Below the pieces are notes generated by a model, which was not told the DNA's origin, did not search any database, and saw nothing but the letters and a program-made list of their open reading frames with translations. Source: Salvelinus alpinus (Eukaryota > Chordata > Actinopteri > Salmoniformes > Salmonidae). Taken from it: a stretch of 64,000 nt of DNA. Numbering within the stretch: position 1 is the stretch's first letter; each line of letters opens with the position of its first letter. This document shows positions 5,990 to 63,994 of this stretch, one piece after another. Both the position numbers and the translations under genes were made by a program. The stretch is from NCBI RefSeq assembly GCF_045679555.1, contig NC_092090.1, positions 28,944,202 to 29,008,201 of the forward strand. Reading direction: 5' to 3'.

Positions 5990-5995
<6 letters not shown>

Positions 5996-6020
5996 TAGGG
6001 TTAGGGTTAGGGTTAGGGTT
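5990..6020 (+). repeat. Interstitial telomere-like (TTAGGG)n array
   Basis: About five tandem copies of the vertebrate telomere hexamer, written here as gggtta, sit at the junction between the transposase remnant and the cargo of the Tc1 element. Confidence 0.9.
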
Positions 6021-12322: not shown

Positions 12323-13118
12323 TCGTCTTTGAGTTAAGTTTTGTTTTGTGAAGTTCAAGACTTTATTATCCACCTCAGGCTTTTCCTTTGTGTGCATGTG
12401 TGTGTGTGAACATGCGTGTCTCTGTGAACATGCATGTACTGTGTGTGTACATTTTGTGCCATGTACATTGTGACAGGTGCGCATTATGGTGAACACAACC
12501 ACAGGATGGCTGACCCATGTGTGTCTCAGTGGAACTATTCAAACAGCAGCAATAGGATGGATTCAGAGTGATATTAGTCCCTCTGCCTTCGCCAGAACAG
12601 CAACAGCTTTATTCATTACAAGAATGCAGTGGGAGGTTTAATGTAATAATTATTTGCCTCCTCGTCTGCATTAGGCATAACTAATCAGACAAACATCGCC
12701 TCAAATAGCTTTCTTTTCAGTGTAAGAAACTCTGAGTTTGCTAGTAAATGTTTTAACAAGTTTGCAAGCAGGTCGGGACTGCATTTTGTTCATATGTTCA
12801 AACCAAGAGGACTGGCTCGGATCAGTGTTTTGGATTAGCCCTTTGATGTAGATGATAGGGTTTATAGAGAGAACTTTAGTCTTATGATAAAACATGAGCA
12901 TGGGCAATCACTCAAACAACACTAATGACTGTTGTACCCACCCTATTAGCTATGATTGTGTTTGTTTCTTCACAAACATACTTGTTGGTTCTCATCAATT
13001 ATGAATCATCTGTGTGATTCTCTGTTGCCACTGTGAGGGGAGACAGATATGGAGTTTCTCCCCATCGCTTTGGATACCGTTCATTCTGTTAATATAGAGC
13101 GGCTAGAGATGCAAAGCT
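12323..13118. other. Intergenic, TG-rich patch only
   Basis: A degenerate TG/CATG-rich tract lies at about 12392-12460. Nothing else is recognised. Confidence 0.4.
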
Positions 13119-13778
13119 GTTTGATCTGTCTCCTGGTATGATGATTAGAGGAACGCATGAGGACTTCTTAAAACAGCAGGTCTGGAAGAGGACAGAAGTG
13201 TTTGATCTGTCTCCTGGTATGATGATTAGAGGAACGCATGAGGACTTCTTAAAACAGCAGGTCTGGAAGAGGACAGAAGTGTTTGATCTGTCTCCTGGTA
13301 TGATGATTAGAGGAACGCATGAGGACTTCTTAAAACAGCAGGTCTGGAAGAGGACAGAAGTGTTTGATCTGTCTCCTGGTATGATGATTAGAGGAACGCA
13401 TGAGGACTTCTTAAAACAGCAGGTCTGGAAGAGGACAGAAGTGTTTGATCTGTCTCCTGGTATGATGATTAGAGGAACGCATGAGGACTTCTTAAAACAG
13501 CAGGTCTGGAAGAGGACAGAAGTGTTTGATCTGTCTCCTGGTATGATGATTAGAGGAACGCATGAGGACTTCTTAAAACAGCAGGTCTGGAAGAGGACAG
13601 AAGTGTTTGATCTGTCTCCTGGTATGATGATTAGAGGAACGCATGAGGACTTCTTAAAACAGCAGGTCTGGAAGAGGACAGAAGTGTTTGATCTGTCTCC
13701 TGGTATGATGATTAGAGGAACGCATGAGGACTTCTTAAAACAGCAGGACTGGAAGATGACAGAAGTGTTTGAACTGCT
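13119..13778 (+). repeat. 81-bp tandem array, open in one frame
   Basis: An 81-bp unit is repeated about 8.2 times. The first seven copies look identical; the eighth carries a few substitutions and then decays. Because 81 is a multiple of three and the unit has no stop, the plus strand is open from 13138 to 13797 (219 codons), repeating a 27-residue unit that begins MMIRGTHEDFLKQQVWKR. I do not recognise the unit. The identity between copies points to recent expansion. No splice sites or promoter tie it to a gene, so I list it as a minisatellite, with coding capacity possible but unsupported. Confidence 0.85.
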
Positions 13779-14198
13779 GTTTGGACAACCATTTTGAGCT
13801 GACCAGCATTCGACTGATCTCTGATGATTTTTTTGTTTGAAATGTCCGAACCCCGGCCAACTTTAGTTTGTGGTAAAAGTATTCTAGACACATTTTATTG
13901 ATAAAATGTAATGTAATAAAAATCTGATAAAAATACTGTTCGTTGACGCTAGTGAGGTTTGAGGCCAAATAAGGACCAGGCTATCGCACTGAAGGAGGCA
14001 GGTGTAGGCCTGATATTACAGTAGTACAGTCAGAATTTAAAATTGTGATTTAAAAAAATATATATAGTAAATATAAAACGATAACATTTGTGTGCCATTT
14101 TGGGGTACAAATCATTCTTCTCAAACCACCCACTTATGTCTATCCTTTCTTCCACTGCATCTCCTTGAAAGCTTCTGTTGCTGTGATCATCTGGAGAC
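13779..14198. other. Intergenic, nothing recognised
   Basis: This links the 81-bp array to the left edge of the PEPD duplicate. No feature is seen. Confidence 0.4.
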
Positions 14199-19383: not shown

Positions 19384-19388
19384 GTTTG

Positions 19389-19814
19389 TGTAAAGGGTTT
19401 CTTCCTGGGGTGAAGGAGAGGACCAAAATGCAGCGTAGCCAGTGCTCAACATGTTTAATTATAAGAACAAGTGAACACTACCAACAACTTACAAAATAAC
19501 AAACGTGCAAAACCGATACAGACCTATCTGGTGCAGAACACAAACACAGAGACAGGTAACAAACACCCACAAAAGCCTACTGCCTATGGCTACCTTAAAT
19601 ATGGCTCCCAATCAGAGACAAATGAATGACAGCTGTCTCTGATTGAGACCCAATCTAGGCAGCCATAGACATAACTAGACAACCTAACAAACACTATCCC
19701 ATACAACACCCATAGACTAACCAAACACACACAACATACAATGCCCACCCCAACTCACGCCCTGACCAACTAAACATAATCAAAATAACATAAAAATAGG
19801 TCAGGAACGTGACA
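19389..19814 (-). repeat. 3' LTR
   Basis: This 426-bp copy lies at the low-coordinate end, so it is the 3' LTR in the element's orientation. It lacks the 'tacaca'-type 6-bp addition seen in the other LTR. Confidence 0.9.
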
Positions 19815-22131
19815 TAACCCCCCCCTCAAGGTGCATACTCCGAACGCACCACCAAAAGTCTAGGGGAGGGTCTGGGTGGGCATCTGTCCACGGTGGTGGC
19901 TCCGGCTCTGGACGCTGTCCCCACACCACCATAGTCACTCCCCGCTTCCGTATCCCCCACCCAATGACCACCCTCCAACTAAACCCACCTAACTGAAGGG
20001 GCAGCATCGGGATAAGGGGCAGCACCGGGAAAAGGGGCAGCACCGGGATGAGGGACGGCAGCTCCGGGCTGAGGGACGGCAGCTCCGGGCTGAGGGACGG
20101 CAGCTCCGGGCTGAGGGACGGCAGCTCCGGGCTGAGGGACGGCAGCTCCGGGCTGAGGGACGGCAGCTCCGGGCTGAGGGACGGCAGCTCCGGGCTGAGG
20201 GACGGCGGATCCTGGCTGGCTGACGGATCCTGGCTGGCTGACGGATCCTGGCTGGCTGACGGCTCTGGCTGGTCATGGCTGGCTGACGGCTCTGGCTGGT
20301 CATGGCTGGCTGACGGCTCTGGCTGGTCATGGCTGCCGGAAGGCTCTGGCTGATCCGGTCTGGCGGAAGGCTCTGGCTGATCCGGTCTGGCGGAAGGCTC
20401 TGGCTGATCCGGTCTGGCGGAAGGCTCTGGCTGATCCGGTCTGGCGGAAGGCTCTGGCTGATCCGGTCTGGCGGAAGGCTCTGGCTGATCCGGTCTGGCG
20501 GAAGGCTCTGGCTGATCCGGTCTGGCGGAAGGCTCTGGCTGATCCGGTCTGGCGGAAGGCTCTGGCTGATCCGGTCTGGCGGAAGGCTCTGGCTGATCCG
20601 GTCTGGCGGAAGGCTCTGGCTGATCCGGTCTGGCGGAAGGCTCTGGCTGATCCGGTCTGGCGGAAGGCTCTAGCTGCTCCGGTCTGGCGGAAGGCTCTAG
20701 CGGCTCCTGTCTGGCGGACGGCTCTAGCGGCTCCTGTCTGGCGGACGGCTCTGTAGGCTCATGGCAGACGGGCGGCTTTGCAGGCTCATGGCAGACGGAC
20801 AGTTCAGACGGCGTTGGGCAGACGGGCAGTTCAGGCGCCGCTGGGCAGACGGGCAGTTCAGGCGCCGCTGGGCAGACGGGCAGTTCAGGCGCCGCTGGGC
20901 AGACGGGCAGTTCAGGCGCCGCTGGGCAGACGGGCAGTTCAGGCGCCGCTGGGCAGACGGGCAGTTCAGGCGCCGCTGGGCAGACGGCAGACTCTGGCCG
21001 GCTGAGACGCACTGTAGGCCTGGTGCGTGGTACCGGAACTGGAGGTACCGGGCTAAGGACACGCACCTTCAGGCTAGTGCGGGGAACAACAACAGGGCAC
21101 ACTGGACTCTCGTGGCGCACTCTAGGCCTGGTGCGTGGTACCGGAACTGGAGGTACCGGGCTGAGGGCACGCACCTTAGGGCGAGTGCGGGGAGAAGGAA
21201 CAGTGCGTACAGGGCTCTGGAGACGCACAGGAGGCTTGGTGCGTGGTGCCGGAACTGGAGGCACTGGGCTGGAGACACGCACCATAGGGAGAGTGCGTGG
21301 AGGAGGAACAGGGCTCTGGAGATGCACTGGAAGCCTGGTGCGTGGTGTAGGCACTGATGGTACTGAGCTGGGGTGGGAAGGTGGCGCCGGATATACCGGA
21401 CCGTGAAGGAGGACACGTGCTCTTGAGCACCGAGCCTCCCCAACCTTACCAGGTTGAATGGTCCCCGTAGCCCTGCCAGTGCGGCGAGGTGGAATAGCCC
21501 GCACTGGGCTATGCAGGCGAACCGGGGACACCACCTGTAAGGCTGGTGCCATGTACGCCGGCCCGAGGAGACGTACTGGAGGCCAGATACGTTGGGCCGG
21601 CTTCATGGCATCCGGCTCGATGCCCAACCTAGCCCTCCCAGTGCGGCAAGGTGGAATAGCCCGCACTGGGCTAAGCACGCGTACTGGGGACACCGTGCGC
21701 TTTACCGCATAACACGGTGTCTGACCAGTACGACGCCCTCTCACTCCACGGCAAGCCCGGGGAGTTGGCTCAGGTATCCAACCCGGCTTCGCCACACTCC
21801 CCTTTAGCCCCCCCCCCCCAAGAAATTTTTGGGTGAGCCTCTCGGGCTTCCAGCCTCTCTTACGTGCTGCCTCCTCAATCCACCGCTCCTGGGCTGTGGC
21901 TGCCTCCTTCTTCTCCCGAGAACGGCGATTCTCTCCAACCCTTCCCCAGGGTCCTTTTCCATCCATGATCTCCCAAGACCATTCCTCCTGTGTCCAGTTG
22001 TCCTGTGTACTGGGCCGCTGCTGCTCCCCGTTGCTACGCTGCTTGGTCCGGGTTTGGTGGGTGTTTCTGTAAAGGGTTTCTTCCTGGGGTGAAGGAGAGG
22101 ACCAAAATGCAGCGTAGCCAGTGCTCAACAT
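19801..22131 (-). CDS. 776-codon proline-rich repeat protein of the LTR element
   Basis: One uninterrupted frame starts in the 5' LTR, crosses the whole interior (751 codons exactly) and stops a few codons into the 3' LTR. Residues 1-21 are LTR-coded. A charged segment follows (about 35-120), including 'SREKKEAATAQERWIEEAAR'. Next come proline/arginine-rich imperfect repeats of the type VPRTRPxVRxxSPVPPVP. Then come short tandem repeats: seven of a 9-residue PVCPAAPEL unit, about a dozen of PEPSARPDQ, then SASQDP, and about eight of LPSLSPE. The end is a Trp-rich tail. No gag zinc knuckle or enzyme motif is visible. It may be a gag-like remnant or a novel structural protein. The family is unrecognised. 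The conserved frame through so many repeats is notable, but may follow from repeat units in multiples of three. Confidence 0.6.
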   Translation of the reverse strand: MLSTGYAAFWSSPSPQEETLYRNTHQTRTKQRSNGEQQRPSTQDNWTQEEWSWEIMDGKGPWGRVGENRRSREKKEAATAQERWIEEAARKRGWKPERLTQKFLGGGGLKGSVAKPGWIPEPTPRACRGVRGRRTGQTPCYAVKRTVSPVRVLSPVRAIPPCRTGRARLGIEPDAMKPAQRIWPPVRLLGPAYMAPALQVVSPVRLHSPVRAIPPRRTGRATGTIQPGKVGEARCSRARVLLHGPVYPAPPSHPSSVPSVPTPRTRLPVHLQSPVPPPRTLPMVRVSSPVPPVPAPRTKPPVRLQSPVRTVPSPRTRPKVRALSPVPPVPVPRTRPRVRHESPVCPVVVPRTSLKVRVLSPVPPVPVPRTRPTVRLSRPESAVCPAAPELPVCPAAPELPVCPAAPELPVCPAAPELPVCPAAPELPVCPAAPELPVCPTPSELSVCHEPAKPPVCHEPTEPSARQEPLEPSARQEPLEPSARPEQLEPSARPDQPEPSARPDQPEPSARPDQPEPSARPDQPEPSARPDQPEPSARPDQPEPSARPDQPEPSARPDQPEPSARPDQPEPSARPDQPEPSARPDQPEPSARPDQPEPSGSHDQPEPSASHDQPEPSASHDQPEPSASQDPSASQDPSASQDPPSLSPELPSLSPELPSLSPELPSLSPELPSLSPELPSLSPELPSLSPELPSLIPVLPLFPVLPLIPMLPLQLGGFSWRVVIGWGIRKRGVTMVVWGQRPEPEPPPWTDAHPDPPLDFWWCVRSMHLEGGVMSRS
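20041..20215. repeat. 21-bp tandem repeat
   Basis: About eight near-identical copies of agctccgggctgagggacgg plus one base, coding LPSLSPE on the minus strand of the LTR element. Confidence 0.9.
20338..20690. repeat. 27-bp tandem repeat
   Basis: About twelve near-perfect copies of a 27-bp unit containing 'ctctggctgatccggtctgg', coding the 9-residue PEPSARPDQ unit on the minus strand. Confidence 0.9.
20800..20990. repeat. Second 27-bp tandem repeat
   Basis: About seven copies of a 27-bp unit containing 'cagttcaggcgccgctgggc', coding PVCPAAPEL on the minus strand. Confidence 0.9.
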
Positions 22132-22499
22132 GTTTAATTATAAGAACAAGTGAACACTACCAACAACTTACAAAATAACAAACGTGCAAAACCGATACAT
22201 ACCTATCTGGTGCAGAACACAAACACAGAGACAGGTAACAAACACCCACAAAAGCCTACTGCCTATGGCTACCTTAAATATGGCTCCCAATCAGAGACAA
22301 ATGAATGACAGCTGTCTCTGATTGAGACCCAATCTAGGCAGCCATAGACATAACTAGACAACCTAACAAACACTATCCCATACACATACAACACCCATAG
22401 ACTAACCAAACACACACAACATACAATGCCCACCCCAACTCACGCCCTGACCAACTAAACATAATCAAAATAACATAAAAATAGGTCAGGAACGTGACA
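22068..22499 (-). repeat. 5' LTR
   Basis: This 432-bp copy lies at the high-coordinate end. The long minus-strand frame begins within it, at 22,131. Confidence 0.9.
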
Positions 22500-22792
22500 G
22501 TTTGTCTTAGAGGTTGAAAGTTGAGCAGGTTTTAAATATTGATACACAGAAGATGGATCCTTTAGTCTTGTAGCCCTGAGTGGCTCTCCCATGGGTTTAT
22601 TCATAAACATAGCACAGCTTGACTGTATTTGAACCTGAGGCAGGCTGCCGTGTGCATAGGGATACTGATGGAGATTTAAAGTGGCTGTGTGGAGCGCCCA
22701 TGGTGACACAACATGAGCACCTTTGAAAGGCAAACCGCCTCCGCTCAAAACTTTTATTCATTCTGATGTGCATGCTGGGAACAATTTATTAT

Positions 22793-59773: not shown

Positions 59774-60725
59774 GTGACAATGAGTCGTCATAATGCTGCA
59801 TCAAATGTACATGATCTTAGGGGCATTGGCAAACACAATGTAAGTAATTTTATTTATGTACCCCTAATTGCACCCAATACATCTGTTAATCCAACAGCTA
59901 TTGTAAGCAGTAATCATGAGCCTATAAACCAGAGTTACACTGTTAGCACTGAGGCAGTGTGCAATAGTAGGAAGGCCACTTTATGCAGCTCACCCTGCAC
60001 TATCAGCTCCAATGTAAATAGCATGAGTAAGTCTACCTCTGATAAGCTTCCCAGTAAAGCATTTAAAACAATCAAGCAACCCAGAAAAGTGCTAAAAATA
60101 GCCCATATTAACATGGGTAGCCTAATAAACAAGGTCCATGAAGTCAATAACTTGCTTGTAACAGAAGACATTCATATTCTGACTATCTCTGAAACTCACT
60201 TAGATAATACCTTTGATGATACAGTGGTAGCAATACATATAACATCTACTGAAAAGACAGAAATGCCAACGGAGATGGTGTTGCTGTCTATATTCAGAAC
60301 CACATTCCTGTAAAGCTTAGAGACGATCTAATGTTAAATACTGTTGAAGTAATATAGCTACAGGTTCATCTGTCTCACCGAAAGCACATTCTTGTGGGAA
60401 GCTGCTATAGACCACCAAGTGCTAACAGTTAGTATCTGGATAATAATATGTGTGAAATGCTTGATAATGTATGTGATATCAACAGAGAAGTATATTTTCT
60501 GGATGATTTAAATATTGACTGGCTATCATCAAGCTGCCACTCAGGAACGAAATTTTAATTGTTACCTGTGCCTGCAACCTAGATCAGGTTGTCAGTCAAC
60601 CAACCAGGGTAGTTACAAACAGCATAGGAATTAAATCATCAACATGTATTGATCACATCTTTACTAACGCTGCAGATATTTGCTTTAAAGCAGTATCCAA
60701 ATCTATAAGATGTAGTGATCACAAT
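59774..60725 (+). pseudogene. LINE ORF2, endonuclease part
   Basis: From about residue 110 it reads 'KIAHINMGSLINKVHEVNNL' and 'HILTISETHLDNTFDD', the start of an apurinic-type endonuclease. A frameshift near 60,240 moves the rest ('NGDGVAVYIQNHIPVKLRDD') into another frame, and further stops follow. It ends at the TA where the Tc1 element inserted. Confidence 0.8.
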
Positions 60726-60728
60726 ATA

Positions 60729-62280
60729 CAGTTGAAGTCGAAAGTTTACATACACTTATGTTGGAGTCATTAAAACTCGTTTTTCAACCACTCCACACAT
60801 TTCTTGTTAACAAACTATAGTTTTGGAAAGTCGGTTAGAACATCTACTTTGTGCATGACACAAGTCATTTTTCCAACAATTGTTTACAGACAGATTATTT
60901 CACTGATAACTCACTGTATCACAATTCCAGTGGGTCAGAAGTTTACATACACTAAGTTGACTGTGCCTTTAAACAGCTTGGAAAATTCCAGAAAATGATG
61001 TCATGGCTTTAGAAGCTTCTGATAGGCTAATTGACATTTGAGTCAATTGGAGGTGTACCTGTGGATGTATTTCAAGGCCATCAAACTCAGTGCCTCTTTG
61101 CTTGACATCATGGGAAAATCAAAAGAAATCATCCAAGACCTCAGAAAGAAAATTGGAGACCTCCACAAGTCTGGTTCATCCTTGGGAGCAATTTCCAAAC
61201 AACTGAAGGTACCACGTTCATCTGTACAAACAATAGTATGCAAGTATAAACACCATGGGACAACGCAGCCATCATACCATTCAGGAAGGAGACGCATTCT
61301 GTCTCCTAGAGATGAACGTACTTTGGTGAGAAAAGTGCAAATCAATCCCAGAACAACATCAAAGGACCTTGTGAAGATGCTGGAGGAAACAGGTAAGAAA
61401 GTATCTATATCCACAGTAAAACAAGTCCTATAGCGACATAACCTGAAAGGCGGCTCAGCAAGGAAGAAGCCACTGCTCCAAAACCACCATAAAAAAGCCA
61501 GACTACAGTTTGCAACTGCACATGGGGACAAAGATTGTACTTTTTGGAGAAATGTCCTCTGGTCTGATGAAACAAAAATATAACTGTTTGGCCATAATGA
61601 CCATTGTTATGTTTGGAGGAAAAAGGGGGAGGCTTGCAAGCCGAAGAACATCATCCCAACCGTGAATAACGGGGGTGGCAGCATCATGTTGTGGGTGTGT
61701 TTTGCTGTAGGAGGGACTGGTGCACTTCACAAAATAGATGGCATCATGAGGCAGGAAAATTATGTGGATATGTTGAAGCAACATCTCAAGACATCAGTCA
61801 GGAAGTTAAAGCTTGGTCGCAAATGGGTCTTCCAAATGGACAATGACCCCAAGCATACTTCCAAAGTTGTGGCAAAATGGCTTAAGGACAACAAAGTCAA
61901 GGTATTGGAGTGGCCATCACAAAGCCCTGACCTCAATCCTATAGAACATTTGTGGGCAGAACTGAAAAAGCGTGTACGAGCAAGGAGGCCTACAAACCTG
62001 ACTCAGTTACACCAGCTCTGTCAGGAGGAATGGGCCAAAATTCCCCCAACTTATTGAGAGAAGCTTGTGGAAGGCTACCTGAAACATTTGACCCAAGTTA
62101 AACAATTTAAAGGCAATGCTACCAAATACTAATTGAGTGTATGAAAACTTCTGACTCTGGGAATGGTGATGAAAGAAATAAAAGCTGAAATAAATCACTC
62201 TCTCTACTATAATTCTGATTGTGAAAAACTAAGTTTAAATATATTTGGCTAAGGTGTATGTAAACTTCCGACTTCAACTG
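60729..62280 (+). mobile_element. Full-length Sleeping Beauty-like Tc1 transposon
   Basis: The 1,552-bp element has outer ends 'cagttgaagtcgaaagttta' and its inverse, an inner direct repeat near 60,937, and TA duplications at 60,727-60,728 and 62,281-62,282. It splits the LINE endonuclease/RT gene with no other loss. It carries a full-length transposase frame. Confidence 0.92.
61110..62132 (+). pseudogene. Tc1 transposase, full length with three stops
   Basis: A single frame of 341 codons runs from MGKSKEIIQDLRKKIGDL to the final TAA at 62,130, the 340-residue length of the Sleeping Beauty-type family. The N-terminal paired-like domain includes 'KVPRSSVQTIVCKYKHHGTT'. The catalytic triad is in place: D at 61,566 (WSDET), D at 61,839 (QMDNDPK) and E at 61,944 (NPIEHLW). 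In-frame stops at 61,431 (TAG), 61,581 (TAA) and 62,055 (TGA) inactivate it. No frameshift is apparent. Confidence 0.9.
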
Positions 62281-62282
62281 TA

Positions 62283-63994
62283 ATAGCAATATCTAGGAAA
62301 ACCAAAGTTCCAAAGGCTGGGCCTAATATAGTGTATAAGAGGTCATACAAGAAGTTTTGTTGTGATTCATATATTGATGATGTAAAGAATATTTGCTGGT
62401 CTGTGGTGTGTAATGAGGAGCAACCAGACACTCCACTTGACGCATTTATGAAACTACTTACTCCAGTTACTAATAAGCATGTACACATTAAGAAAATTAC
62501 TATAAAAACTGTTAAATCCCATTGGATTGATGAGGAATTGAAAAATTGTATGGTTGAGAGGAATGAGGCAAAAGGTATGGCAGCCCAACTGATTGGCAAA
62601 CGTACTGCAAATTAAGAAGTCATGGTACAAAAAAATAAAAATAAATACACTATGAAACAAAGATCAATTATATAAAGAATGATAATAAAAAGCTTTGGGG
62701 CACCTTAAATGACATTGTGGGAAAAAAAGCCAACTCGGCTCCTTCATTCATTGAATTAGATGGCTCATTCATCACAAAGCCCACTGATATTGCAAACTAC
62801 TTTAATGACTTTTTCATTGGCAAGATAAGCAAACTTAGCGATGACATGCCAGCAACAAACGCTGACACTACACATGCAAGTATATCAGACCAAATTATGA
62901 AAGACAAGAATTATACTTTTGAATTCCATAAAGTCAGTGTGGAAAAGGTAAAAAAATTATTGTTGTCTATCAACAATGACAAGCCACCGGGGTCTAACAA
63001 TCTGGATGGAAAATTACTAAGGATAATAGCAGACAATATTGGCACTCCTATTTGCAACATCTTCAATTTAAGCCTACTAGAGAGCGTGTGCCCTCAGGCC
63101 TGGAGGGAAGCTAAAGTCATTCCGCTACCCAAGAATAGTAAATCACCCTATACTGGCTCAAATAGCCGACCAATCAGCTTGTTACCAACCTTTAGTAAAC
63201 TTCCGGAAAAAATAGTGTTTGACCAGATACAATACTATTTCACAGTAAACAAATTGACAACAGAATTTCAGCATGCTTATAGGGAAGGACACTCAACAAG
63301 GACAGCACTTACACAAATGACTGATGATTGGCTGAGAGAAATTGATGATAAAATGATTGTGGGGCTGTCTTGTTAGACTTCAGTGCAGCTTTTGACATGA
63401 TCGATCATAGTCTGCTGCTGGAAAAACGTATGTGTTATGGCTTTACACCCCCTGCTATAATGTGGATAAAGAGTTACTTGTCTAACAGAACACAGTGGGT
63501 GTTCTTTAATGGAAGCCTCTCAAATATAATCCAGTTAGAATCAGGAATTCCCCAGGGTAGCTGTTTAGGCCCCTTGCTTTTTTCAATTTTTACTAACGAC
63601 ATGCCACTGACTGAGTAAAGCCAGTGTCTATGTATACATGTCAGCTACTACAGTGACTGAAATGACTGCAACACTCAACAAAGAGCTGCAGTTGGTTTCA
63701 GAGTGGGTGGCAAGGAATAAGTTAGCCCTAAATATTTCTAAAACTAAAAGCATTGTATTAGGAACAAATCCTAAACCTCAACTAAATCTTGTAATAAATA
63801 ATGTGGAAATTGAAGTTGAGATGACTAAACTGCTTGGAGTAACTCTAGATTGTAAACTGTCATGGTCAAAACATATTGATGCAGTGGTAGCTAAGATGGG
63901 GAGGAGTCTGTCTATAATAAAGCAATGCTCTGCCTTCTTAACAACACTATCAACAAGGCAGGTCTATTTTTGTCGCACCTTGACTACTGTTTAG
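62283..63994 (+). pseudogene. LINE ORF2, reverse transcriptase part
   Basis: The frame resumes cleanly after the Tc1 element (AISRKTKVPKAGPNIVYKRS). The RT blocks are 'NDKPPGSNNLDGKLLRIIAD', 'NSRPISLLPTFSKLPEKIVF', then after a one-base shift near 63,360 'LLDFSAAFDMIDHSLLLEK', then 'GIPQGSCLGPLLFSIFTNDM'. The next expected block, the catalytic YADD, is absent: the text passes from SVYVY straight to MSATT at about 63,630-63,640. The thumb region (KLALNISKTKSIVLG) follows in another frame. Confidence 0.85.

Follow-up and report, generated by a model that had tools for sequence, protein, structure and literature searches.

The window, a 64,000-nucleotide (nt) stretch of the Salvelinus alpinus genome (contig NC_092090.1, forward-strand positions 28,944,202 to 29,008,201; located at G000:C5, with 2.37 Gb of genome searched), carries at positions 19389-22499 a complete long terminal repeat (LTR) element whose sense strand is the minus strand. 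This element is probably one copy of a large non-autonomous family with a self-priming layout of the Tf1/sushi type, copied in trans by an autonomous element.

The first-pass annotation of the window had described a complete insertion, and its LTRs of 426 nt (3') and 432 nt (5'), the GTTTG duplication and the purine tract were all recovered. A single substitution and a gap of 6 nt separate the two LTRs, which on the minus strand start with TGTCACG and end with TTTACA; the interior between them has 2253 nt, that is, 751 codons. The 776-codon frame (22131-19801, minus strand) was likewise confirmed, from an ATG in U5 of the sense 5' LTR, through all the interior codons, to a stop just inside the sense 3' LTR, although other reading frames across the repeat region are also long. 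Among ten complete copies read, nine had a 5-bp target duplication and nine carried, at the corresponding position, a frame of 669-778 codons without a stop, which argues against chance, and in seven the LTRs were identical within the element. The view that the element is non-autonomous also held, given the paired LTRs, the target duplication, the purine tract, the many copies and the absence of pol (no Pfam match in the 776-residue frame).

In the cycle that we propose, the transcript would fold back, its first 10 nt pairing with the primer site, which follows the 5' LTR after 1 nt, and its U5 pairing with the sequence directly past that site; the RNA 5' end would then be cleaved and extended by the reverse transcriptase of the partner, and the complementary DNA would be integrated with a 5-bp duplication. 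The U5 ATG opens a protein part of about 105-120 residues whose amino acids appear to be under purifying selection, and an unstable poly-G tract would sometimes give access to a long proline-rich extension. The short protein, sometimes with this extension, would most likely help the RNA of the element to enter the particle of the partner; consisting of an acidic leader and a basic, helix-forming part, it may act in cis to bring the RNA there. Non-autonomous LTR elements are usually regarded as non-coding passengers. A family with thousands of candidate copies, an apparently selected protein, a self-priming layout and LTR swapping would make the gain of coding by such a passenger testable, and the covarying primer pairs would offer, in an animal, a natural experiment on self-priming.

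The predicted self-primer and a second RNA stem

The primer site starts one base past the LTR and its first letters are not TGG, so on general grounds a transfer RNA primer is unlikely. Ten nt of this site can pair with LTR positions 251-260, which follow a TATTTAA box at a distance of about 25 nt. When the LTR was shuffled 20000 times by single nucleotides, a match of this kind appeared somewhere in 233 of the shuffled sequences; the complementarity alone is therefore moderate evidence, and at the level of sequence it is covariation that decides for the self-primer pairing. The pair GTGGGTGTTT/AAACACCCAC was present in 23 of 32 copies and GTGGGTGGTT/AACCACCCAC in eight, with one mismatched copy (L040), so that the two pairing states, T:A and G:C, match in 31/32 copies spanning several LTR types. 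A third pairing state is predicted by the primer site of L084, AATCACCCAC, which calls for the self-primer GTGGGTGATT. A search with that base left open, ahead of a U5 anchor like that of L084, gave 15 places, L084 not among them; 14 had the predicted A and one a G, as read on the LTR side only. Finally, a genome-wide search with the long-LTR pattern gave 1474 places with both motifs at the right distance, 728 with A in the R region and 735 with T in the primer site; both positions were changed in 699 and neither in 710, with 29 + 36 mixed, and therefore 1409/1474 places were consistent with pairing, whereas a reversed-pattern control gave 0 places. Transcription is predicted from the sequence to start at the self-primer.

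Directly past the primer site, GGACCAAGCAGCGTAGC pairs with the U5 arms GCTACGCTGC and TTGGTCC. The corresponding arms are CCAATCCGC/GCGGATTGG in L060 and CCACTCTGC/GCGGAGTGG in L059 and L061. The covariation analysis used 15 of the 16 aligned stem rows (L079 is one base short; L073, L075, L080 and L082 have no anchor in the stem alignment), and over these 15 distinct rows 95.4% of cells were paired and four pairs were changed on both sides, with a covariation score above those of all 500 shuffles; when the partner was slid as a control, pairing fell to 23-43%. An RNA layout of this kind has been called a 'pretzel' in Tf1, and further duplexes between primer-site-adjacent sequence and the 5' LTR are described for Tf1/sushi elements in PMC10085805; one such duplex, with covariation, is present here. 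As the start codon of this element lies in U5, unlike in the Tf1/sushi group, the second stem falls within coding sequence. Both the self-primer and this stem, at the LTR/interior junction and partly within leader codons, had been overlooked in the first-pass annotation.

The N-terminal protein, the poly-G tract and the proline-rich part

The ratio of nonsynonymous to synonymous substitution rates (dN/dS) was obtained for four of the 32 window-type copies (the window copy, L055, L035 and L024), L060 and 12 L061-type copies; L059 and L074 were left out for their broken frames, and L014 from the group contrasts without the first 17 codons. For the N-terminal part, the ratio was 0.42 in frame between window-type and L061-type copies (0.91/0.86 in the other frames), 0.33 between L060 and L061-type copies (1.44/1.29), 0.35 within the L061 type (2.61/0.81) and 0.59 between window-type copies and L060 (0.70/0.60). 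When the first 17 codons, which hold the RNA stem, were dropped, the first three contrasts gave 0.37, 0.28 and 0.25 in frame against 0.89-2.62 in the other frames. As judged from these comparisons, purifying selection on the N-terminal ~105 codons is clear in three of the four contrasts. N-terminal residues are conserved across families, and the first 62 interior codons were stop-free in 43/46 copies.

The leader motif A.WS was in frame in 45/47 copies of five length classes. This conservation was rejected as pure protein evidence, as the A.WS and RTK codons also supply the arms of the stem in the RNA; the leader dN/dS was 0.72 against 1.28/0.87 in the other frames (14 of 45 leaders). The leader ATG was the first ATG past the predicted start in 31/34 copies, a count that excludes L056, which has no in-frame ATG, and 12 copies whose fetched part does not include the R region. 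Shuffles of nine leaders had no ATG in 8-64% of cases, and therefore the missing upstream ATG of each leader is weak evidence by itself. Searches of Pfam with the N-terminal part of eight sequences gave only a match of one of them to Nup153, at E 0.19. A structure model of the 104-residue N-terminus had only helices, with a predicted local distance difference test score of 59 and a predicted template modelling score of 0.26, and for this reason no fold search was made with it.

A run of 8-15 G follows this part in 31/32 window-type copies (L049 is without it), and one of 5-17 G is found at the same position in the sister copies read. The phases between the N-terminal and downstream frames were distributed 18/18/10 over 46 copies, 18 of them in phase, as the window copy is; against an expectation of one-third (binomial p 0.44), this matches an unconstrained homopolymer. 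L048 was dropped from the count for an anchor mismatch, and its in-phase run of 12 would give 19/47. The long frame is therefore not kept as a unit, contrary to the earlier proposal that it was held open as such. In only 5/10 complete copies was the frame open all the way from the U5 ATG (776, 774, 712, 708 and 687 amino acids), the remaining five stopping after 32, 107, 119, 120 and 120 codons; in L012-L015 the early stop lay at or just past the out-of-phase tract, at codon ~105. The longest open frame extended from the tract or earlier to the end of the fetched part in 27/30 loci (10 of the 30 also read elsewhere).

Past the tract, the first 280 nt were about 6% diverged between the window type and the L061 type, and the 19 copies aligned there (L061 itself was left out for a deletion) had no internal indel, a likeness that suggests exchange between families. 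Here, the dN/dS was 0.44 in frame between these two types (0.81/1.46 in the other frames; Fisher p 0.06), 0.50 between L060 and the L061 type (1.48/0.93), 0.55 between the window type and L059 (0.63/1.36), 0.92 between the window type and L060/L074 (1.12/0.34), and 0.85-0.90 within groups. At the C-terminus it was 0.51-0.80 in frame against 0.66-2.79, with another frame lower in 2/6 pairs and Fisher p values of 0.058 and 0.085 for two pairs, and an in-frame 12-nt indel was seen. Thus, of the selection on the protein suggested earlier, to be checked by dN/dS on both terminal parts, the N-terminal share was borne out and is frame-specific, but on the C-terminus and the stretch past the tract, and so on the proline-rich part, selection appears weakly supported.

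The tandem repeats of this part are real, but they are not nested as first described, the arrays being consecutive (54/108, 27, 27, 18, 21 and 18 nt). Growth of repeats by multiples of three, also proposed earlier, agrees with the better-matched arrays (82% or more) of the window, L059, L060 and L061, whose periods are 18, 21, 24, 27, 54 and 108 nt; overlapping weaker rows had periods of 48 (78%) and of 10 and 14 (63-68%). Changes between 54-nt units fell at third positions in 20/45 cases (p 0.08), a suggestive excess. The PSLSPEL heptads (20036-20218) matched the heptads of the RNA polymerase II C-terminal domain (E 5e-6), the best solved-structure hits; this likeness was taken as probably low complexity and set aside, and the three fully read sister elements have other units.

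Copies, relatives and competing explanations

The genome search gave 2582 candidate places with the LTR as query and 2929 with the first 278 bases of the interior, and only 40 of each were scored, so that the thousands of copies are candidate counts rather than verified totals. Sister families were collected through the primer-junction pattern and a search with L061, and the N-terminal part of the window copy differs from that of L072 or L083 at 32-33% of aligned bases. The compact form is common to the copies and the sister families, and therefore the element spreads in this form. Interiors at least 97% alike over the first 278 bases sit behind LTRs of several types and lengths. In L024 and L025, the likeness of the 5' LTR to the window LTR is limited to 185 nt at 75%, whereas the 3' LTR matches it at 96%, and L014 carries a segment of another interior lineage. 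Because near-identical interiors lie between different LTRs, the simplest account would be template switching between RNAs packaged together, through which the families exchanged LTRs.

In the fetched parts of L024 and L025 (1-8501 in each), the element, with a 5' LTR of a type unlike its 3' LTR, lies beside long open frames of simple serine/leucine repeats. Matches evenly spaced at ~2.5 kb (G000:C7:76348457-76353669) and ~2.06 kb (G000:C28:39391054-39395429) were seen, as in tandem LTR-interior-LTR-interior arrays, and three at G000:C3:16446123, 16471513 and 16496905, ~25.39 kb apart, suggest a tandem segmental duplication carrying the element.

The LTR ends TGTCACG/CTTTACA fit the sushi integrase motifs TGTYANR/CNTNACA, as given in PMC3601003, but they do not decide the affiliation, because the 3' motif of rGmr1, CGTNACA, also fits sister LTRs. 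In the same genome, ten of 150 scored matches to sushi Gag (PF16297) were read; their LTRs look different, and within 560 nt from the LTR start the same layout was found with other letters (GCCGGATCGTT/AACGATCCGGC), over 11 nt in three of the ten and 9 nt in a fourth. Among 11 loci with 12 LTR hits (L018-L028, L028 partly masked), the short interior is present in L024 and L025, and in the others no gag-pol-like frame between two LTRs was seen by eye (frames unsearched against families). Six places had the junction pattern with a changed interior: three, retrieved at 4.2 kb, proved to be short sister elements, and the remaining three were retrieved at 0.8 kb only. No usable relative of the protein came from Pfam, from solved structures or from viral contigs, and the element was not met in the open-access literature, including PMC3601003, PMC10085805 and PMC7599744.

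The element therefore shares with the Tf1/sushi chromovirus group, as judged by sequence and covariation, a predicted RNA 5' end complementary to a site beside the 5' LTR, as well as a second U5-interior stem and the LTR-end motifs, but no chromovirus gag or pol was found by Pfam in its 776-residue frame, and it has its own protein without known relative and long proline-rich repeats. TR-GAG and other plant one-frame non-autonomous elements also have LTRs, a primer site, a purine tract and a single frame without pol; here, in contrast, no Gag domain was detected (a very diverged one is possible), the genome is that of an animal and the layout is self-priming. TRIM and LARD elements are likewise generally regarded as moved in trans, but are non-coding by definition, whereas a coding part under apparent selection is present here. 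The yeast Ty1 also has its start codon inside the LTR, but is primed by transfer RNA and has gag and pol, neither of which was found in this element with its self-priming layout.

Several results weigh against the proposed self-priming, trans-copied element. The number of second-stem pairs changed on both sides was reached in 47/500 shuffles and the number of pair types in 317/500. The fold of the window copy (z -1.2) is not unusually stable, and its minimum-energy form pairs the self-primer elsewhere, which counts against a simple thermodynamic reading. The hybrids L024 and L041 are without the second-stem extension, yet 40/40 scored places match the U5 of L041 at 100%. Copies share descent, so the covarying counts are not independent events; the 1474 places were counted by motif pattern and may not all be the short element, and L084, the source of the third-state prediction, is missing from the places listed both with the L084-like anchor and with the long-LTR pattern. 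Without the first 17 codons, the contrast between the window type and L060 had no frame signal (0.61 in frame against 0.64/0.68). Six of the ten sushi Gag loci have no fitting self-primer (five without a match and L063 with a 9-nt hit off-place), the four that have one lack a long second stem, and no autonomous partner with this LTR was found.

We consider it unlikely that the frame is a by-product of GC-rich, multiple-of-three repeats that stay open by chance, with no protein made or needed. The near-random joining of the two frames (18/46), the within-group dN/dS of 0.85-0.90 past the tract, the length of other frames in the repeats and the third-position changes (20/45, p 0.08) would be expected from it, but not an N-terminal dN/dS of 0.25-0.42 limited to one frame in three of four contrasts, nor residues conserved across families and a leader in frame in five length classes, nor the in-frame 12-nt indel and lower dN/dS of the C-terminus in most pairs; for the N-terminus, it is already strained. 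Slightly better odds, though still poor, are given to selection on the long proline-rich protein as a whole, with every copy yielding it through slippage at the poly-G in transcription, reverse transcription or translation. Some constraint on both sides of the tract, the G-run of 5-17 nt at the corresponding position of the sister copies that were read and the 27/30 loci with the longest frame from the tract or earlier to the end of the fetched part agree with this, whereas the weak downstream constraint, tract lengths resembling neutral homopolymer drift and the near loss of the tract in L049 do not.

That the element is what remains of an autonomous one, or of an endogenous retrovirus, after decay and loss of pol appears very improbable: its LTR ends and layout match sushi-type elements, but the 776-residue frame had no Pfam match, the N-terminal part only that to Nup153 (E 0.19, one of 8), and the ten complete copies are of one compact form, 7/10 with identical LTRs. 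Returning to the self-priming element copied in trans, a fuller version of it is put forward only tentatively: a non-autonomous retroelement of a vertebrate, encoding a protein family of its own, in which leader codons would double as an arm of the self-priming fold, one LTR segment serving as promoter, primer fold and coding start, the poly-G, variable in length, would act as a switch between a short and a long proline-rich protein, and the protein would favour particle access for its own RNA.

Feature coordinates and other repeats in the window

Table 1. Features of the LTR element, in sense order.
Feature	Position	Strand	Basis
Target-site duplication, sense-upstream copy, GTTTG on + strand	22500..22504	.	
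5' LTR (sense orientation), 432 nt	22068..22499	-	
TATTTAA, TATA-like box ~25 nt ahead of predicted transcript start	22274..22280	-	promoter role inferred
Predicted transcript start and self-primer GTGGGTGTTT	22240..22249	-	covariation with primer site
Upstream ATG from the sole LTR-LTR substitution, upstream open reading frame of 10 codons; absent in other copies read	22198..22200	-	
ATTAAA, polyadenylation-like signal immediately 5' of leader ATG	22133..22138	-	
Leader ATG in U5, A at -3, opens 776-codon frame	22129..22131	-	
Second RNA stem, U5 arm GCTACGCTGC, within leader codons	22109..22118	-	
Second RNA stem, U5 arm TTGGTCC	22099..22105	-	
Primer site AAACACCCAC, 1 nt past 5' LTR end	22057..22066	-	
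Second RNA stem, interior arm GGACCAAGCAGCGTAGC	22033..22049	-	
N-terminal coding part, 104 codons: U5 leader and conserved W-rich, charged part	21820..22131	-	
Poly-G run, 12 nt in window copy; joins or breaks two frames	21808..21819	-	
Basic proline/arginine-rich stretch ahead of short repeats	21372..21807	-	
54/108-nt repeats	21004..21371	-	
27-nt repeats (PAAPELPVC)	20790..20987	-	
27-nt repeats (PSARPDQPE type)	20244..20753	-	
18-nt repeats (PSASQD)	20206..20272	-	
21-nt repeats (PSLSPEL)	20036..20218	-	
18-nt repeats (PLIPVL type)	19996..20054	-	
Conserved C-terminal coding part	19815..19993	-	
Polypurine tract TTGAGGGGGGGGTTA	19815..19829	-	
3' LTR (sense orientation), 426 nt; frame stop at 19801-19803	19389..19814	-	
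Target-site duplication, sense-downstream copy, GTTTG on + strand	19384..19388	.	

Elsewhere in the window, open frames at 59774-63376 resemble pieces of a non-LTR retrotransposon (endonuclease- and reverse-transcriptase-like), and a telomere-like interstitial repeat, AGGGTT x5, lies at 5991-6020. At 13118-13797, an 81-bp unit is repeated about eight times with 99% matches, and a frame of 219 amino acids there consists of 27-residue repeats (MMIRGTHEDFLKQQVWKRTEVFDLSPG).

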